Part shown: positions 1-29,800 of the stretch, one piece after another | How the letters are laid out: the number at the start of each line of letters is the position of its first letter | How positions within the stretch are numbered: position 1 is the first letter of the stretch | Assembly: GCF_000154725.1 (NCBI RefSeq) | Contig: NZ_DS544873.1 | Span: forward strand, 1,395,364-1,441,411 | DNA length: 46,048 nt | DNA from: Kordia algicida OT-1 | Lineage (GTDB): Bacteria > Bacteroidota > Bacteroidia > Flavobacteriales > Flavobacteriaceae | Direction of reading: 5' to 3' | Position numbers and translations under genes: made by a program | Notes under the pieces: generated by a model | What the model was told of the DNA's origin: nothing | Database searches by the model: none | The model's input: the letters and a program-made list of their open reading frames with translations, nothing else

Positions 1-1099
1 CATTTGAATTTCCTTGATAGTTTTTGGTAATTTCTGATGAAATATTGTCTGGATAAGCTTCAATATACTTTTTATAATTATCTGTAAATGAATTCAATAG
101 AAATTCTTTTGGTGTTAAATAGTTGTATAACGCTTTCGCGAGATTTGAGTCTTCTGCAAAGAACATTCGGACACATTCGCCAGCTTCTCCCATCACATAA
201 CTGTAGTTTGGCGGAATTCCTTCGTTTACAAATTTGAGCATATCTACATAGGAAATCGTTCCTAAACCACCCGAAATATTGGCTATTTGATTGGCATAAT
301 GTTCAAATTCATCTTCATCGCATAAAGTTGTGTGTTCGTAAGAAAGATCAAGTTTTACAGCAATTTCCTTTCCTTGCATGACATCTGCGGAATAGACTTC
401 GCCAAAGTTTCCCGTTTTGATACGTTCGTTACCTTCCGTTACTTGACTTAACAATGTTAAACTGTCTTTTCCCGCCGTAGCGCCAAAGAATAGATTTTCC
501 GTAACATTGATTGCATTTTTTAGTGAGAATGATGGTTTTTCTGTTGAAAATTTAATCGGTAATTCTTTGGTTGAATGTTCAAGATTTGCATGAAATGTAT
601 GCAGTTTTCCTCCTTGAATTCGTGAAATTCCTTTGTATGGTAATGGAAATGGTTGCACTTGGTAACCGAAAGCAAAATGTGTTTGGATTCCAACTTCATC
701 AAATTGTAATGGAATTTGAAATTCTTTAAAATTTTGAAAGTTTAAGAAGAACTTTAATTGATTATCTTTTATTAAATAAAAACTTCCGTTAACTCCATTC
801 AAGTCACTTAATATAAATAAGTTATTATTTTCTTTATTGTAAATAAATAGTTCAAAAACACCTCCTAAATTATCATATATAGTTTCAAGCGTTTTGTCAG
901 TTTCTTGATGAAGATTTTCAATGAAATGCCTAATTTTTTCTTCTTCATGATCTGATGAACACCAAATAATTTCAAACAATTCACTATCAAAAGTGTATAG
1001 ATCACTTCCTTTGTTTTCTTCTTTAAAAAGTTGCACGTTAAATTCGTTCTTATCAAAAGAAATATGAAAATTGGTGATGCGATGTTTTACAAGTTTCAA
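1..1099 (-). CDS. Asparagine-synthase-related protein, 3' end beyond the window
   Basis: Reading the minus strand from 1099 gives 366 codons open to the window edge. The N-terminal part resembles the class II glutamine-amidotransferase half of asparagine synthases: a GGVFELFIYN segment, then LSDLNGVNGSFYL, then HFAFGY followed by GISRIQGGKLHTF. The nucleophilic Cys2 is absent. Near residue 210 comes a PP-loop-like segment, FFGATAGKDSLTLLS, where the GKDS core fits an ATP-pyrophosphatase AMP-forming ligase. The best start is TTG at 1099, overlapping the neuA stop by four bases (TTGA); no ATG lies in frame nearby. That overlap implies translational coupling. Its place at the end of a nonulosonic-acid operon suggests amidation or another ATP-dependent modification of the sugar or glycan. 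The substrate is unknown, and only the first two thirds or so of such a protein is visible. Confidence 0.75.
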   Translation of the reverse strand, partial: MKLVKHRITNFHISFDKNEFNVQLFKEENKGSDLYTFDSELFEIIWCSSDHEEEKIRHFIENLHQETDKTLETIYDNLGGVFELFIYNKENNNLFILSDLNGVNGSFYLIKDNQLKFFLNFQNFKEFQIPLQFDEVGIQTHFAFGYQVQPFPLPYKGISRIQGGKLHTFHANLEHSTKELPIKFSTEKPSFSLKNAINVTENLFFGATAGKDSLTLLSQVTEGNERIKTGNFGEVYSADVMQGKEIAVKLDLSYEHTTLCDEDEFEHYANQIANISGGLGTISYVDMLKFVNEGIPPNYSYVMGEAGECVRMFFAEDSNLAKALYNYLTPKEFLLNSFTDNYKKYIEAYPDNISSEITKNYQGNSN

Positions 1100-1794
1100 A
1101 GTGTGATGGTTTTTGCTAGTTCAGTTGCTTTTTCCCAATCAGCTAACGTATCAATGTTAACGTAGTATTTTTTTTCAGAAACAATATACGCCAAAGAATT
1201 TCCGTAGAGTGAGTTTTCTTGCATGAGAATTTCCGTTTTTGTGATGTATATACTTCCATCTCTGTGATAAGCTTTTGGTAATTCCTGTCGTCTTGGAATG
1301 ATATTTTGTTCGCCTGTCGCAATTTGCAAGATACCATTTTCATTGGCTTTAAACGTCCAATGCGGATTGTATTCATGTGGAACTTCCAAGACAGAGACCA
1401 ACGAATCGGTCTGCTTTTCTTTGAAGGTTTCCAACGCTTTATCTAAAAATCCTTTTGGTCGAAATGGACTTGTTGGTTGTAATAAACAAATCGCATCAAA
1501 GCGTTTTCCTTCGTTTTGCAAGAATGAAACCGCGTGCTGAATGACTGGTAATGTTGGAGTTGCGTCTTCCGCTAAGTGTTTTGGTCGTACAAAAGGGACA
1601 TTCGCGCCAAGCGATTTCGCAATAGTAATAATTTCAGAATCATCCGTTGTAACGACAACTTCAGAAATGTATTTTGATTGCAAAGCAGCGTCAATGCTAT
1701 ATTGAATTAAAGGTTTCCCGTTGAGTAGTTTTTTGTTTTTCCCTGGAACACCTTTGCTTCCGCCTCTTGCTGGTATGACTACGAGAATGTTCAT
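1096..1794 (-). CDS. neuA: CMP-sialic/legionaminic-type acid cytidylyltransferase
   Basis: A 232-residue cytidylyltransferase of usual length. It activates a nonulosonic acid with CTP to give the CMP-sugar used by glycosyltransferases in the cytoplasm. The N-terminus carries the nucleotide-binding signature IPARGGSKGVPGKN, followed by KPLIQYSI, then LLQPTSPFR near residue 105, and a C-terminal NIDTLADWEKA segment. All are typical of NeuA/LegF/PseF-like enzymes. It lies downstream of neuC and neuB on the same strand and overlaps the asparagine-synthase-like gene. The ATG at 1794 is preceded closely by a short heptamer repeat instead of a purine-rich ribosome site. Whether the substrate is Neu5Ac, legionaminic acid or a related sugar cannot be decided from this sequence. 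Confidence 0.93.
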   Translation of the reverse strand: MNILVVIPARGGSKGVPGKNKKLLNGKPLIQYSIDAALQSKYISEVVVTTDDSEIITIAKSLGANVPFVRPKHLAEDATPTLPVIQHAVSFLQNEGKRFDAICLLQPTSPFRPKGFLDKALETFKEKQTDSLVSVLEVPHEYNPHWTFKANENGILQIATGEQNIIPRRQELPKAYHRDGSIYITKTEILMQENSLYGNSLAYIVSEKKYYVNIDTLADWEKATELAKTITL

Positions 1795-1798
1795 TTTT

Positions 1799-1819
1799 TG
1801 TTGTGTGTTGTGTGTTGTT
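1799..1819 (-). repeat. Short heptamer array upstream of neuA
   Basis: About three copies of the 7-bp unit TGTTGTG (CACAACA on the coding strand) lie within five bases of the neuA start codon. The same unit forms the long arrays upstream of neuC and neuB. There is no IVP gene here, so this is either a minimal or decayed array or a seed site. Confidence 0.85.
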
Positions 1820-1870: not shown

Positions 1871-3028
1871 TTAATACATAATCATTTTGTGCGCAATTAG
1901 TTCTGTATTTGCCAAGGCGTCTGCAATTTGCTTTCCAGAGTTTCCATTGCCATAGATATGTTCTGAAAGCATTCCTTTTTGACCAATTCGTTCTTGAATT
2001 GCTGTTTTGATTGCTTCTTTATTATATTCCGCATCAACTACATTTTTCCCACGCTGACGGCGATTTTGACGCGTTCCGATGTTCACTGTTGGCACTCCGA
2101 TGAATGAACATTCACGAATTCCCACACTAGAATTTCCAACCAAACAATCACAATTTTTTAATAAATGTAAAAAATCATTTGGTTCCATGTTTTTGAAGAA
2201 ACGAATGTTCTCTGGATTGAAATTTTCTCTGTAATAGCGAATTCCGTTGGAAGTTCCATCTGAACCTGCGTCTACGTTTGGCCAAAACCAAAACGTTGGA
2301 ATGTTGAGTTCGTGAACTGCTTCTAAAGTACATAATACATCTTCTCGCGCCGATTTGTAACGATTCGTTTCTGGATGCTGCATTACAACTAAATAACCGT
2401 TAGAAATGTCTAAATCAGCTCCAACTCCACCATATTTTTTGATTGGGTCAAATTCGTAGTTGTTATTTTCCAAGACTTCTTTAGCAATGTCAATAGATGG
2501 ACAACCTGTGTTGATTACATATGCAGGATCTTCACCTAATTTGACGACACGATCTTTTGCATCTTCAGAAGCAACTAAGTGTAAATCTGCCAATTTCGTA
2601 TTTGCATGACGTACTTTTTCGTCAATGTTTCCAGTAACTTCTCCACCTTGAATATGTACTAACGGAATGTTTTGATACGCCGCAGCAATACTTGTCGCAA
2701 TCGTTTCAAAACGATCGGCAATGGTAATGACTGCATCGGGTTTTAGGTTGTAGAATACGTTTGAAAGCTCCATCACACCTAAGCCTGTCGTTTTTGCCAT
2801 TGCGGTAGGATTTTCTCCTTCCAACACCATAAATACCTTTTCATCAATCTTAAAACCATCTTTTTCAATGACATTTACAGCATTTCCGTAACGACCTAAT
2901 AACGCCGAACCTGCTACAACCAATTGTAATTCTAAATTTGGATGTTCTTGAATGGCTTTTAGTGCAGTTTTTATTCTACTATATGATGGTCGTGCGGTGA
3001 CTACGGCACATATTTTTCGTTTGTTCAT
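1871..3028 (-). CDS. neuC: UDP-N-acetylglucosamine 2-epimerase (hydrolysing), NeuC/LegG type
   Basis: 385 residues with the GT-B-like fold of hydrolysing UDP-HexNAc 2-epimerases. It would release ManNAc or a 2,4-diacetamido-6-deoxymannose and UDP for NeuB. Visible signatures are KICAVVTARPSYSRIK at the N-terminus, VITIADRFETIA and PLVHIQGGEVTG in the middle, and DCLVGNSSVGIRECSF followed by GVPTVNIGTRQNRRQRG near residue 320, the nucleotide-binding region. It sits between neuB and neuA, so the three enzymes form one pathway: epimerase, synthase, then activation. The start ATG at 3028 lies 12 bases from the end of a roughly 150-bp heptamer array. NeuC (sialic acid) and LegG (legionaminic acid) cannot be told apart by eye. 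Confidence 0.9.
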   Translation of the reverse strand: MNKRKICAVVTARPSYSRIKTALKAIQEHPNLELQLVVAGSALLGRYGNAVNVIEKDGFKIDEKVFMVLEGENPTAMAKTTGLGVMELSNVFYNLKPDAVITIADRFETIATSIAAAYQNIPLVHIQGGEVTGNIDEKVRHANTKLADLHLVASEDAKDRVVKLGEDPAYVINTGCPSIDIAKEVLENNNYEFDPIKKYGGVGADLDISNGYLVVMQHPETNRYKSAREDVLCTLEAVHELNIPTFWFWPNVDAGSDGTSNGIRYYRENFNPENIRFFKNMEPNDFLHLLKNCDCLVGNSSVGIRECSFIGVPTVNIGTRQNRRQRGKNVVDAEYNKEAIKTAIQERIGQKGMLSEHIYGNGNSGKQIADALANTELIAHKMIMY

Positions 3029-3040
3029 TATCGGTTGTTC

Positions 3041-3190
3041 TGTTGTGTGTTGTGTGTTGTATGTTGTATGTTGTATGTTGTGTGTTGTGTGTTGTGTGTT
3101 GTGTGTTGTGTGTTGTGTGTTGTGTGTTGTGTGTTGTGTGTTGTGTGTTGTGTGTTGTGTGTTGTGTGTTGTGTGTTGTGTGTTGTGTGT
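3041..3190 (-). repeat. Heptanucleotide array, about 21 copies, upstream of neuC
   Basis: Near-perfect tandem 7-bp units TGTTGTG on the plus strand, with three consecutive variant units TGTTGTA at 3055-3075. It lies between the end of the IVP gene and the neuC start codon, so on the mRNA it is a CA-rich, purine-poor leader. It contains no coding sequence; the cysteine/valine-rich open frames across it are artefacts of the repeat. Confidence 0.97.
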
Positions 3191-3198
3191 TAAATTGT

Positions 3199-3570
3199 TT
3201 AATTTCGATTAACTTTCCAATCTTTTTCTACATATTTAATAAAATTATACAATTTTCCGCCTAAATTTTCATAATCAGCTAACAACATTTTGACTTCATT
3301 TACATCATGCAGTTTTTCAATCATTTGTAATTGAGAAATACATTCCAATAATGAAGCATGAGCATAAATTAAAAATTTTATAAAGTCTGCTTTGTATTTT
3401 CTTCTTCCGTAACCTTCTACAATATTGTCTTTGATACTTTTAGAAGATCTTCTAATTTGACTTCCTTGCTCGTACAATTCGTATTTGGGCAGTTTTAAAG
3501 ACATTTTATGAACTTTTTCTGCTAAACTGAATGCGGTAGTATATACTTCTAAATCTTTATATGATTTCAT
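3199..3570 (-). CDS. Four-helix-bundle protein, S23 rRNA intervening-sequence (IVP) family
   Basis: 123 residues, the usual length of this family. The N-terminal MKSYKDLEVYTTAFSLAEKVH segment is a hallmark (YKDLxVWxxA), followed by the central RRSSKSIKDNIVEGYGR motif and an FLIYAHASLLECISQL helix. The family was first found inside intervening sequences of 23S rRNA genes and is structurally related to the Avd accessory protein of diversity-generating retroelements. Stand-alone copies are common in Bacteroidetes and their function is not established. Here the stop codon lies 8 bases from the heptamer array, and the gene sits between neuB and neuC as part of a duplicated cassette. RNA or nucleic-acid binding is plausible but unproven. 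Confidence 0.88.
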   Translation of the reverse strand: MKSYKDLEVYTTAFSLAEKVHKMSLKLPKYELYEQGSQIRRSSKSIKDNIVEGYGRRKYKADFIKFLIYAHASLLECISQLQMIEKLHDVNEVKMLLADYENLGGKLYNFIKYVEKDWKVNRN

Positions 3571-3628
3571 AAGTTACTTGACTATTTAACTCACAACCCA
3601 AAACTCATAACTATAGCGTTTTATAACT

Positions 3629-4633
3629 TCAAAGAATATCTTCTTCATTCAAAAAATCCCACTGTTTCATATTGTTTACTAACTTCTTCCCGATGACTTC
3701 TTGGAATTTTGAAGCCAGTATTCCGTAATTTTTAGGCTTTTTGGCTTCTAAATCGTCAAAAGTTAACACATGTCCTTTTGGTAAATCTTTGTTAATTGCT
3801 AACGACTTTTCAAAGATTTGCTTTAATTCTGAATAGTGTGAGTTGTCTTTTTTATCGATCGGATGATTTAATGCTTCATCAATGTTTCTGATGGCACTAA
3901 CCAATTGCGTGGTTTCTGGAAATGTGAGTGACGATTTTGCATCTGGTCCAAACATTTCTTTGTCAAATACTACATGAAATTCCAAGATTTCTGCACCAAG
4001 CGTCGCTGCTGCGATTCCTGCTTCAATTCCTGATGAATGATCCGAGAATCCAATTTTAACTTGGTAACGCTCTTTTAATTCTTGAATAACGTTTAATCCA
4101 AATTGTTTCGGCGCTGTCGGATACGACGTTGTGCATTGCAATATGGAAAATTCACAGTTTTTTTCTTTGAGAAAAGCGACCGTTTCATCTAATTCTGCAA
4201 ACGAACTCATTCCCGAAGAAATGATGATTGGTTTTCCCGTATTGGCTATTTTTTCTAGCAATAGAAAGTTATTGACTTCCCCAGAACCAACTTTGTAACA
4301 CGACACACCAACTTCTTCCAACAAATCTACCGCCGCATTACTAAATGGAGACGAAAGGAAATCTAAACCAACTTCGTCACAATGCGCTTTTAATTCTTTC
4401 CATTGCGATAAGGAGAATTCCATACGTTGCCAATATTCGTAACGCGTGGCATCTTGCTTGGAGAATTTTACTCTAAAAGGTTCGTGAATGCTACTTTCCG
4501 CCGCAGCGATATGCGTTTGAAATTTGATTGCGTTCGCACCCGTTTTTGCCACAGCATCAATATACGCATGCGCCATTCCGAGACTTCCATCGTGTGCTTG
4601 CGCAATTTCTGCTATGATGTAGGTTGTTTTCAT
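3629..4633 (-). CDS. neuB: N-acetylneuraminate/legionaminate synthase
   Basis: 334 residues. It condenses phosphoenolpyruvate with ManNAc or a related hexosamine to give a nine-carbon acid. The N-terminal TIM barrel shows YIIAEIAQAHDGSLGMA, ANAIKFQTH, SPFSNAAVDLLEEVGV, KVGSGEVNNFLLLE, GKPIIISSGM and IGFSDHSSG, all standard for NeuB. The C-terminal 60 residues form the SAF (antifreeze-like) domain, with KDLPKGHVLTFDDL. It precedes neuC and neuA in the operon. The ATG at 4633 is only six bases from the edge of a 22-copy heptamer array. The stop codon at 3629 lies just outside the shared cassette sequence. Confidence 0.94.
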   Translation of the reverse strand: MKTTYIIAEIAQAHDGSLGMAHAYIDAVAKTGANAIKFQTHIAAAESSIHEPFRVKFSKQDATRYEYWQRMEFSLSQWKELKAHCDEVGLDFLSSPFSNAAVDLLEEVGVSCYKVGSGEVNNFLLLEKIANTGKPIIISSGMSSFAELDETVAFLKEKNCEFSILQCTTSYPTAPKQFGLNVIQELKERYQVKIGFSDHSSGIEAGIAAATLGAEILEFHVVFDKEMFGPDAKSSLTFPETTQLVSAIRNIDEALNHPIDKKDNSHYSELKQIFEKSLAINKDLPKGHVLTFDDLEAKKPKNYGILASKFQEVIGKKLVNNMKQWDFLNEEDIL

Positions 4634-4639
4634 TTGTTA

Positions 4640-4797
4640 TGTTGTGTGTTGTGTGTTGTGTGTTGTGTGTTGTGTGTTGTGTGTTGTGTGTTGCGTGTTG
4701 CGTGTTGCGTGTTGTGTGTTGTGTGTTGTGTGTTGTGTGTTGTGTGTTGTGTGTTGTGTGTTGTGTGTTGTGTGTTGTGTGTTGTGTGTTGTGTGTT
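4640..4797 (-). repeat. Heptanucleotide array, about 22 copies, upstream of neuB
   Basis: Tandem TGTTGTG units with three consecutive TGTTGCG variants around 4689-4710. It ends six bases from the neuB start, so the whole ribosome-binding region of neuB is made of CACAACA repeat. The variant units differ from those in the neuC array, so the two arrays have diverged separately or expanded since duplication. Confidence 0.97.
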
Positions 4798-4804
4798 AAA
4801 TTGT

Positions 4805-4996
4805 TTAATTTTGATTAACTTTCCAATCTCTTTCTACATATTTAATAAAATTATACAATTTTCCGCCTAAATTTTCATAATCAGCTAACAACGTTTTGAC
4901 TTTATTTACATCATGCAGTTTTAAAGACATTTTATGAACTTTTTCTGCTAAACTGAATGCGGTTCTATATACTTCTAAATCTTTATATGATTTCAT
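4805..4996 (-). pseudogene. Internally deleted IVP-family gene
   Basis: A 63-residue frame that matches the first 27 and last 36 residues of the neighbouring 123-residue IVP protein almost exactly. The missing part is 180 bp, an in-frame loss of 60 residues. In the intact copy this stretch is bounded by the direct repeat GCAGTTTT, and one copy of that octamer remains at the junction, so the loss looks like recombination between short repeats. The central RRSSKSIKDNIVEGYGR core is gone, so a normal four-helix bundle cannot form. It may still be translated, but a decayed gene is more likely. Confidence 0.8.
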
Positions 4997-5036
4997 AAGT
5001 TACTTGACTATTTAACTCACAACCCAAAACTCATAA

Positions 5037-6239
5037 CTATAGCGTTTTCAAAAACACATTCAACTTCTCCACTTGTTCTTCAACAGTAAAGTTTTCTGTA
5101 AACGTTTTTCGAGCATTATTGCCTATAAATATCCGCTTTTCTGTGTTGTTATACAAATCTACTAATTGCGTGGTCATTTGTGGTAAATCGTTGCTTAAGA
5201 TACTGTTTTGATCGTGAACAACTTCCGGATAACAACTTGCCGCCGCTTTTGTACTCACCAAAACTTGAGCATAGTTAAAAACTAACGGAATTCGCGTGCG
5301 TGTTCCTGTGTTGTATTCCCACGGAATGATGTGAATATCATATGGTTTTAATACAATATTTAAGTCTTCTACAAAACCTAAACATGCTATTTGTGGATCT
5401 TCTAAGCGTTTTTTCAACGATTCGGAAGCATATTTTAAATTTCCAATGACTTTTAGTGTAATATTGGGAATTTTCGCTTTGAGTTCCTTCCAACAAACTT
5501 CTAAAAATCGTTCGAGTCCGATGCGATTTGCCGTTGTTCCCATGCCGCCTAAATGCACTATGGATGGTGTTTCTGAGCTATTTTTTGAAAGTTCAACCTT
5601 TTTGTATGTCAACGGAATATACAATGCATTTGGATTTCCGTACTCTTTGATTTCCTGCGTTTCCGTGAACGAAGCTGAAACACAAGCATTCACGCTTTTC
5701 ACTAAATCTAACTCTACTCTTTTCTTTTGTTTTAGGTGGAATTTTTGTAGAAAAGACAACTTACTTTTTAGTTTTCGCAATTTAAATTCCCAATCGTGAT
5801 GTGCGTAAATGATTGGAATGCCTAGATTGGAATAATTTGCCAAAATTGCGGTCCATCGCCATTCTGCCCAAACGAAATCGATTTTATTTTCTGAAATGTA
5901 TTTTTTTAGAACTTGCTCGTTGGCAGAATTTACAAAGAAATATTCAAATTTTTCAGGTGAAAAAATCGCCATTTTGATTCGGTCAAAAATACTTTTTGGA
6001 TGAATTTGTGCGACTTGAAAATGTTGTATTTCACTATAAAAATTCGTAATTTCTTGAATGAACTCAGCATTTACATCCGACGAAAGTCTCGCCGTTGGTT
6101 TATCTGAAAAATCTACCAATAACACATGAACCTTGTAATTCAGTTTTGCCAATAATTGCAAGTGACTGAAATATACAGACGCGCCACCGTTAGCGTTCGG
6201 GGAAATTTTCGTGTTATTTACTAGAAATAGAACGTTCAT
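5037..6239 (-). CDS. Glycosyltransferase, GT4-like (GT-B fold)
   Basis: 400 residues. The N-terminus MNVLFLVNNTKISPNANGGA, followed by a YFSHLQLLAKLNYKVHVLL stretch, is typical of the acceptor domain of GT-B enzymes. The C-terminal half has PSIVHLGGMGTTANRIGLE, LKVIGNLKY and CLGFVEDLNIVLKPYDIHIIPWEYNTGTR-like donor-domain features, ending with a helix of the form VEEQVEKLNVFLKTL. It presumably adds a sugar during glycan assembly on the cytoplasmic face. It abuts the GT2 gene upstream with no gap. Its final codons and TAG stop fall inside the duplicated IVP cassette, so its C-terminus may have been altered by that insertion. Donor and acceptor are unknown. Confidence 0.85.
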   Translation of the reverse strand: MNVLFLVNNTKISPNANGGASVYFSHLQLLAKLNYKVHVLLVDFSDKPTARLSSDVNAEFIQEITNFYSEIQHFQVAQIHPKSIFDRIKMAIFSPEKFEYFFVNSANEQVLKKYISENKIDFVWAEWRWTAILANYSNLGIPIIYAHHDWEFKLRKLKSKLSFLQKFHLKQKKRVELDLVKSVNACVSASFTETQEIKEYGNPNALYIPLTYKKVELSKNSSETPSIVHLGGMGTTANRIGLERFLEVCWKELKAKIPNITLKVIGNLKYASESLKKRLEDPQIACLGFVEDLNIVLKPYDIHIIPWEYNTGTRTRIPLVFNYAQVLVSTKAAASCYPEVVHDQNSILSNDLPQMTTQLVDLYNNTEKRIFIGNNARKTFTENFTVEEQVEKLNVFLKTL

Positions 6240-29688: not shown

Positions 29689-29716
29689 TTGAATGTTGAA
29701 TGTTGAATGTTGAATG
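29689..29716 (+). repeat. Four-copy heptamer array TTGAATG
   Basis: Four perfect tandem 7-bp units starting eight bases after the GIY-YIG-like stop codon and ending at the second direct repeat. The period is the same as in the arrays of the polysaccharide operon, and the unit is related (TTGxxTG). Confidence 0.9.
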
Positions 29717-29800
29717 TGTTTCTAAGAAGAAATAGAGTTTTGTTTGAAACTAATTGATACATTTTCAAATTATCAAATTGCCACATTAACAAAATTTCTA
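29717..29800 (+). repeat. Direct repeat right of the GIY-YIG-like gene
   Basis: Second copy of the 83-base element at 29195-29277, with TTTGAAACTAATTGATACAT and TATCAAATTGCCACATTAAC. The rest of this intergenic space, 29801-29951, is AT-rich with no recognised feature. Confidence 0.75.

Follow-up and report, generated by a model that had tools for sequence, protein, structure and literature searches.

The 23S rRNA gene of Coxiella burnetii can carry an intervening sequence (IVS) in which an open reading frame (ORF) for S23p lies in the loop of a 28-bp stem formed by terminal inverted repeats; tandem heptamers (GACAGAT) precede the ORF, RNase III cuts in the stem and one strain has a 176-bp deletion in the ORF, and the S23p of Xanthomonas is a homopentamer (accessible parts of PMC4990558). 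Heptamers are also reported as TAACTGA direct repeats from Beggiatoaceae, some Cyanobacteria and Bacteroidetes, with one inverted case (PMC4679880; the terms S23 and four helix are absent from its main text). Here we analyzed a 46,048-nt stretch of Kordia algicida OT-1 (contig NZ_DS544873.1, positions 1,395,364 to 1,441,411; this whole stretch is termed the window), which comes from a 5.03-Mb genome in a single contig and contains two genes of the S23p-type, four-helix-bundle family IVP, each beside an array of TGTTGTG repeats. No rRNA hit was found in the window or in 7 further loci, and the window cassettes stand between neu-type and glycosyltransferase genes. We consider it probable that they are intercistronic, IVS-like cassettes, in which an IVP gene in sense is framed by inverted, locus-specific heptamer arms, and that the unit is a small mobile or recombinogenic element. 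Full-text searches of the open-licence PMC literature listed no paper that, judged by its title or abstract, describes an intercistronic IVP cassette.

Two IVP cassettes with inverted heptamer arms

The two cassettes in the window consist of the following features.

3041..3191, minus strand: expanded 3' arm of cassette 1 (neuB-neuC), 21.6 copies of TGTTGTG on the plus strand (CACAACA in sense)
3199..3570, minus strand: intact IVP / S23p gene of cassette 1, 123 amino acids (aa), PF05635/TIGR02436
3309..3316, plus strand: GCAGTTTT direct repeat at one border of the segment absent from copy 2
3489..3496, plus strand: GCAGTTTT direct repeat at the other border of that segment
3582..3610, minus strand: 5' arm of cassette 1, degenerate heptamers GTTATGA GTTTTGG GTTGTGA GTTAAAT in sense, inverted with respect to the 3' array (read against a sequence ruler)
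3611..3622, minus strand: 12 nt AAAACGCTATAG of cassette 1, common with the GT4 coding end and a putative trace of the direction of copying
4640..4797, minus strand: expanded 3' arm of cassette 2 (GT4-neuB), 22.6 copies of TGTTGTG
4805..4996, minus strand: IVP gene of cassette 2 with an in-frame 180-bp deletion, 63-aa ORF
5008..5036, minus strand: 5' arm of cassette 2, as in cassette 1
5037..5048, minus strand: end of the GT4 gene (last three codons plus stop), from which the 12 nt of cassette 1 likely derive

Each TGTTGTG array, of about 22 copies, is a 3' arm that has overgrown, one of a pair of inverted, degenerate 7-nt repeat arms around the IVP gene. On the coding strand, GTTATGAGTTTTGGGTTGTGAGTTAAAT precedes the window IVP gene and its inverted counterpart, ATTTAACACACAACACACAAC..., follows it; the arms of cassette 1 share the inverted match GTTATGAGTTTTGGGTTGTGAGTTAAATAGT / GTTGTGTGTTGTGTGTTGTGTGTTAAATTGT. 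TGTTGTG matches amount to 98% in both arrays, which stand directly before start codons. The intact protein of cassette 1 (P0001) matches PF05635 (E 5e-25, 88.2 bits against a cut-off of 33.8), TIGR02436 (E 1.5e-27, 95.9 bits against 24) and the PDB entry 2gsc (E 8.5e-8), and searches of Pfam and NCBIfam with the 63-aa ORF of cassette 2 were negative at E <= 0.001.

A sequence-only reading of this DNA had described two repeat-plus-IVP units in the operon, nearly identical outside their arrays, the second of which had lost 180 bp between direct repeats, and all of this was borne out. Outside the arrays, the copies align in two gapless blocks with 245 of 251 positions identical, the common block ending at 3622/5048; copy 2 lacks exactly 3309-3488, and GCAGTTTT occurs in the window at 3309, 3489 and 4915. 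The shared flank that was counted with each unit is real, but it is no mere flank, being itself the short degenerate heptamer arm inverted to the array.

Architecture, concerted arms and selection across IVP genes

The possibility that such units occur only in this operon, at fixed positions and with no empty sites, does not hold: 12 PF05635 genes over the cut-off lie at unrelated sites in the host genome, most of them with the window architecture and different 7-8-mers. One of these genes has a relative of 91% identity in Kordia zhangzhouensis (among the matches listed). When upstream and downstream flanks were compared in inverted orientation, the gene's own pair beat all 22 mismatched pairings in eight of the 12 cases, tied in one and failed in three; nine of the 12 scored within the highest 3% when set against 322 control genes taken from 400 kb of host sequence (Mann-Whitney U test, p 2e-7; here and below, p-values ignore shared ancestry and are descriptive only). 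Among 111 co-directional spacers of this genome the best inverted score was 27, and the top ones looked terminator-like by eye. Ordinary intergenic structure was ruled out by these two control sets. The array, which the sequence-only reading had made part of the unit's definition, does not define it, since arms vary by locus, other cassettes use other 7-mers, and three or more copies of TGTTGTG occur at four further host sites where no IVP gene was seen. At three of these four sites (L041, L042 and L044), TTAAC directly precedes the CACAACA array, as at the 3' end of the window cassettes.

A wider set was assembled from the host genome, the genus, a 60-genome sample of the phylum and 80 named loci (80 of at least 582 confirmed matches). 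The phylum loci were an initial 29 and 60 more, the latter taken from the matches listed in order of E-value, skipping those with in-frame stops, those near ones already taken and some others. The 208 loci gave 207 with an IVP ORF and 234 ORFs, of which 222 had 150 nt on both sides and 221 were unique. With a threshold of 26, set after the scores of the host genome were known, 135 of the 221 IVP genes (mostly Bacteroidota) reached the inverted score and 28 of 221 did so in direct orientation, compared with 3.8% of 2637 permuted pairs, 9.7% of 1768 pairs permuted with matched GC content and 6/187 neighbouring genes. The proportion was 8/12 for the host, 14/28 for the genus, 58/93 for the phylum sample and 55/88 for the named loci, and 64% of genes passed when one was taken per crude cluster (28 clusters, one with 171 genes). 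Arms had a median length of 29 nt and a mean identity of 87%, those on the 5' side being rich in G (23.6%) and poor in C (7.2%). The best lag between 5 and 11 was 7 in 85 of 116 arms and 8 in 21, the upstream signal at 7/14/21 nt was 0.38/0.35/0.34 in the 135 genes and 0.36/0.34/0.34 in the 86 below the threshold, and the repeat-unit consensus from 76 clear loci was roughly A-R-R-W-N-T-K. Matches to the family were present in 44 of the 60 sampled Bacteroidota genomes, with up to 16 per genome.

We compared the arms of 915 pairs of related IVP genes with 50-95% protein identity. The match between the two arms of one locus stayed at 29.8-31.5 at every divergence, and the match across loci fell from 31.7 through 28.5 and 24.8 to 19.7 as identity dropped from 80-95% to 50-60%; within-locus values were higher in 773 of the 915 pairs and lower in 120, the difference being clear below 70% identity. 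The arms therefore change together. By eye, among three orthologous cassettes before one gene, two species have GGTTGCT at both ends and the third has GGTTTCT with GAAACC. The ratio of nonsynonymous to synonymous substitution rates (dN/dS) of the IVP genes had a median of 0.09 (74 finite values from 86 pairs), and the protein is therefore under purifying selection.

Flanks of a similar kind surround GxxExxY (PF13366) genes, for which 27 of 30 loci were used after three were dropped on a failed motif check: 12/27 had inverted flanks, against 2.1% of permuted pairs (Mann-Whitney U test, p 9e-11), and direct-orientation scores were raised as well (8/27). GxxExxY copy number tracks IVP number (rho 0.68). 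In this group (L314-L343, PDDEXK_3) the inverted short-repeat flanks have units such as CACAGAG.

Genomic location, turnover and history of the window copies

The host cassettes lie at sites that we take, from the sequences, to be atpA/atpG, sufA/sufB, ffh/folD, scoA/scoB, fadB-fadA-ACDH (two), paaG-paaH-paaI (two), tolC/its membrane fusion protein gene and a gene of the metallo-beta-lactamase fold/menC. The unit that had been thought to multiply between glycan genes is a real cassette but is not confined to them, being present also in atp, suf, fad, paa, sco, men and ffh-folD spacers. Both neighbours point in the same direction as the IVP gene in 11 of the 12 host cases, and the remaining one (L060) adjoins a 78-aa opposite ORF. 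Across the wide set, 174 IVP genes were co-directional with both neighbours, 12 with neither, 7 were anti-co and 6 co-anti (199 classed; of the other 22 of the 221, 16 were not called and 6 lay at an edge). The corresponding control values were 47/70 co-directional with both and two with neither, and IVP genes lie inside co-directional runs more often than control genes. The accessible part of PMC5524665 places a four helix bundle protein gene of Flavobacterium columnare between guanylate kinase and nucleotidyltransferase genes in both compared genomes, a position that fits the spacer location of IVP cassettes.

Presence was sporadic among close relatives at the neu, fad, paa and atpA-atpG junctions. 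By eye, the fadB-fadA junction of 11 genus members holds one IVP type in four, a different IVP with other arms in one and, in six, inverted repeats of three kinds with no IVP gene, and the fadA-ACDH junction holds three IVP types in eight (two frameshifted) and an IVP-less hairpin in three. The paa junctions showed turnover like that of the fad junctions, also by eye, with one host IVP cassette just upstream of a seemingly older hairpin; at paaH-paaI, an unrelated small gene whose product starts MEKLL or MEKFL replaces the IVP gene of relatives in four genomes (L304, L310, L312, L313). Among 30 Flavobacteriaceae examined from 60 genomes searched, the atpA-atpG spacer contained IVP-like genes in three (one of them, L346, interrupted by a stop), a seemingly decayed one in a further genome and no IVP gene but an inverted score of at least 26 in four, the shortest spacers being 15, 27, 30 and 39 (twice) nt. 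From such gain, loss and replacement at fixed sites we infer that the cassettes are probably mobile.

The window cassettes lie in the following operon, in which a third short array, at the neuC-neuA junction (about 1799-1819), had been absent from the sequence-only reading.

1096..1794, minus strand: neuA-like cytidylyltransferase (CTP_transf_3, domain match)
1799..1819, minus strand: short TGTTGTG array, two perfect and one imperfect copies, immediately before neuA, without an IVP gene
1871..3028, minus strand: neuC-like epimerase (Epimerase_2, domain match)
3629..4633, minus strand: neuB-like synthase (NeuB + SAF, domain match)
5037..6239, minus strand: GT4-type glycosyltransferase (domain match)

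Elsewhere in the window, a small TTGAATG x4 array at 29689-29717 has no adjoining IVP gene that we could see. The GT4-neuB junction is present in 10 of 11 genus members and the neuB-neuC junction in seven, the rest having other neighbour genes. An IVP gene stands at the former in the host and, decayed, in relative G001, and at the latter in the host and, with stops, in relative G002, so that by eye eight of 10 and five of seven junctions are without a cassette. Several neu junctions of relatives without an IVP cassette there (L093, L095, L097, L098, L100) contain a palindrome some 120-180 nt long, CGTCAGTTCGAGTG...CACTCGAACTGACG, with variable ends, and at L093 (G008, GT4-neuB) a long AAAC tetranucleotide array precedes neuB.

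In arms and array, the two copies of the host are similar to the cassette of G001. The host GT4 gene ends in the 12 coding nt AAAACGCTATAG, and these recur unchanged in the neuB-neuC copy, whose far end has kept ACAACCGATAATG, similar to the ACAACCGAAAATG of G002. Because copy 1 carries these 12 nt of the GT4 coding end, the local duplication seems to stem from recombination or conversion involving the two adjacent junctions, and not from a new hop; in this respect the earlier proposal of a mobile element has to be narrowed, and it is the gain, loss and replacement at fixed sites that speak for it. These ends are most simply read as follows: a copy of the GT4-neuB cassette was placed over or into an older cassette at neuB-neuC while the source still had its 180 bp.

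Explanations for the cassettes and their known counterparts

The mechanism that we propose is as follows. The cassette would be a small mobile or recombinogenic element carried on host transcripts, and the oligomeric IVP protein might recognise the heptamer arms in the DNA or RNA of its own unit, helping to keep or spread it. The arms would be renewed as a pair, one being copied from the other, and slippage may enlarge one arm, as in the TGTTGTG arrays of 22 copies. In the window, the neuB-neuC spacer would have received a copy of the GT4-neuB cassette, which probably overwrote an older one and brought 12 nt of the GT4 end with it, and the GT4-neuB copy would afterwards have lost 180 bp between the 8-nt repeats.

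Several observations weigh against this explanation or narrow it. Of the 221 IVP genes, 86 score below the threshold; the flanks of 187 neighbouring genes have a weak 7-nt period of their own (0.31/0.31/0.31, other lags shown being 0.27-0.30), and the p-values are too small because the loci are phylogenetically related. Above 80% protein identity, within-locus and cross-locus arm matches show no difference (31.2 vs 31.7, 52 pairs). Transitions that keep a G-U pair showed no excess over those by which pairing is lost (114 vs 109, p 0.79), so RNA pairing is not, or not strongly, what keeps the arms alike, and as the force holding them together it was unsupported by this test. The predicted RNA of cassette 1 pairs its arms in the minimum-free-energy structure, but its stability does not exceed that of shuffled sequence (z 0.76; 15 of 20 shuffles fold at least as well). 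IVP-less hairpins were not dispersed (2 in 400 kb vs 2 in shuffled sequence, in a coarse scan for arms within about 160 nt), leaving dispersed miniature elements unsupported in that scan. The sense orientation was dropped as a special sign, since IVP genes (174/186) and control genes (47/49) lie in sense within co-directional pairs about as often. Finally, the protein P0001 matches the G002 copy more closely, at 82% over 123 aa, against 68% over 56 aa for the decayed copy of G001, and the ancestry of the gene body is for this reason less sure than that of the ends. These tests would leave DNA-level copying of one arm from the other, or selection on a protein that binds both arms.

The same observations can be set against other accounts. 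The arms could be a resident regulatory hairpin, that is, an immobile host mRNA device that acts on processing, on stability or on how the following gene is translated, with IVP as a domesticated factor. The location between co-directional genes, the window arrays directly before start codons, the purifying selection on IVP, the inverted repeats at junctions without an IVP gene and the RNase III cleavage of the Coxiella stem (accessible parts of PMC4990558) would all suit such a device, but close relatives carry unrelated arms and different IVP types at one junction, atpA-atpG spacers shrink to 15-39 nt, and neither a G-U signature of pairing nor an RNA fold better than shuffles was seen; we regard it as unlikely. 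That the TGTTGTG arrays are simple slippage products near start codons, with IVP genes there by coincidence, is very improbable and largely refuted by the inverted end-matching of IVP genes, which lies far above that of neighbours and permutations and is concerted, even though TGTTGTG arrays occur at the four host sites without an IVP gene seen, C/A-rich degenerate heptamers precede start codons at some IVP-less junctions (by eye) and neighbour flanks share the weak 7-nt period. We give the least credence to movement in trans by a reverse transcriptase, with IVP in an Avd-like role, or by a Y1 transposase in the manner of REP/RAYT. The Avd model NF033474 matches L054 weakly (E 9e-7) and IVP and Y1 counts correlate (rho 0.51), but the best of six proteins reached 29.1 of the 80 bits of the Avd cut-off, IVP and reverse transcriptase counts are unrelated across the 60 genomes (rho 0.07), and the host, with its 12 IVP genes, gave no PF01797 (Y1) match at E <= 0.001. 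Among the 24 genomes with at least five IVP genes, 12 have no reverse transcriptase match, five, the host and four others, no Y1 match and three neither, and mobilisation by either enzyme was unsupported by these genome counts.

A small mobile or recombinogenic cassette is of interest for several reasons. The IVP family, for which no function is known, occurs widely and in multiple copies in Bacteroidota, and its link to a cassette makes an orphan family a testable element. The cassette explanation ties to a long-standing puzzle, the nature of rRNA IVSs and the role of S23p, and would predict a concrete ligand, the heptamer arrays, for a protein of known fold. More tentatively, and with some doubt on our part, the cassettes could be a distinct class of one-gene mobile units (IVP, and also GxxExxY of the PD-(D/E)XK type), common in Bacteroidota, with inverted arrays of 7-nt or similar repeats that vary by locus, are renewed in concert at both ends and colonise spacers of essential operons; the 23S rRNA IVS would be the rRNA-dwelling branch of this class. 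On this view each subunit of a pentameric IVP ring may contact one heptamer, accounting for the 7-nt period and for arms of 20-40 nt.

Among known systems, REP/REPIN elements with their RAYT (Y1) transposases resemble IVP cassettes in being intergenic hairpins associated with the gene of a small protein. In the present case the host has no Y1 match, the arms are locus-specific heptamer arrays and IVP-less hairpins are not dispersed in the 400 kb scanned. The likeness to Avd of diversity-generating retroelements is the weak profile similarity of some IVP members (NF033474, below its cut-off), and IVP numbers do not follow reverse transcriptase numbers (compared as counts per genome). The TAACTGA repeats, as described in the accessible part of PMC4679880, likewise have 7-nt units, lie in spacers and in many cases immediately precede start codons, but they are one fixed heptamer and direct rather than inverted. 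From the 23S rRNA IVS, as described in the accessible parts of PMC4990558, IVP cassettes differ in occupying the spacers of protein genes and in occurring several times per genome; their arms are locus-specific, the 7-nt period is present on both sides of the gene and the protein is under purifying selection. They are like it in having one S23p gene inside the element, in sense within an apparent co-directional unit, terminal inverted repeats (about 28 bp there, median 29 nt here), heptamers next to the ORF start, sporadic presence and an internal deletion (176 bp there, 180 bp here), and the IVP cassette thus looks like an mRNA counterpart of the known 23S rRNA intervening sequences.

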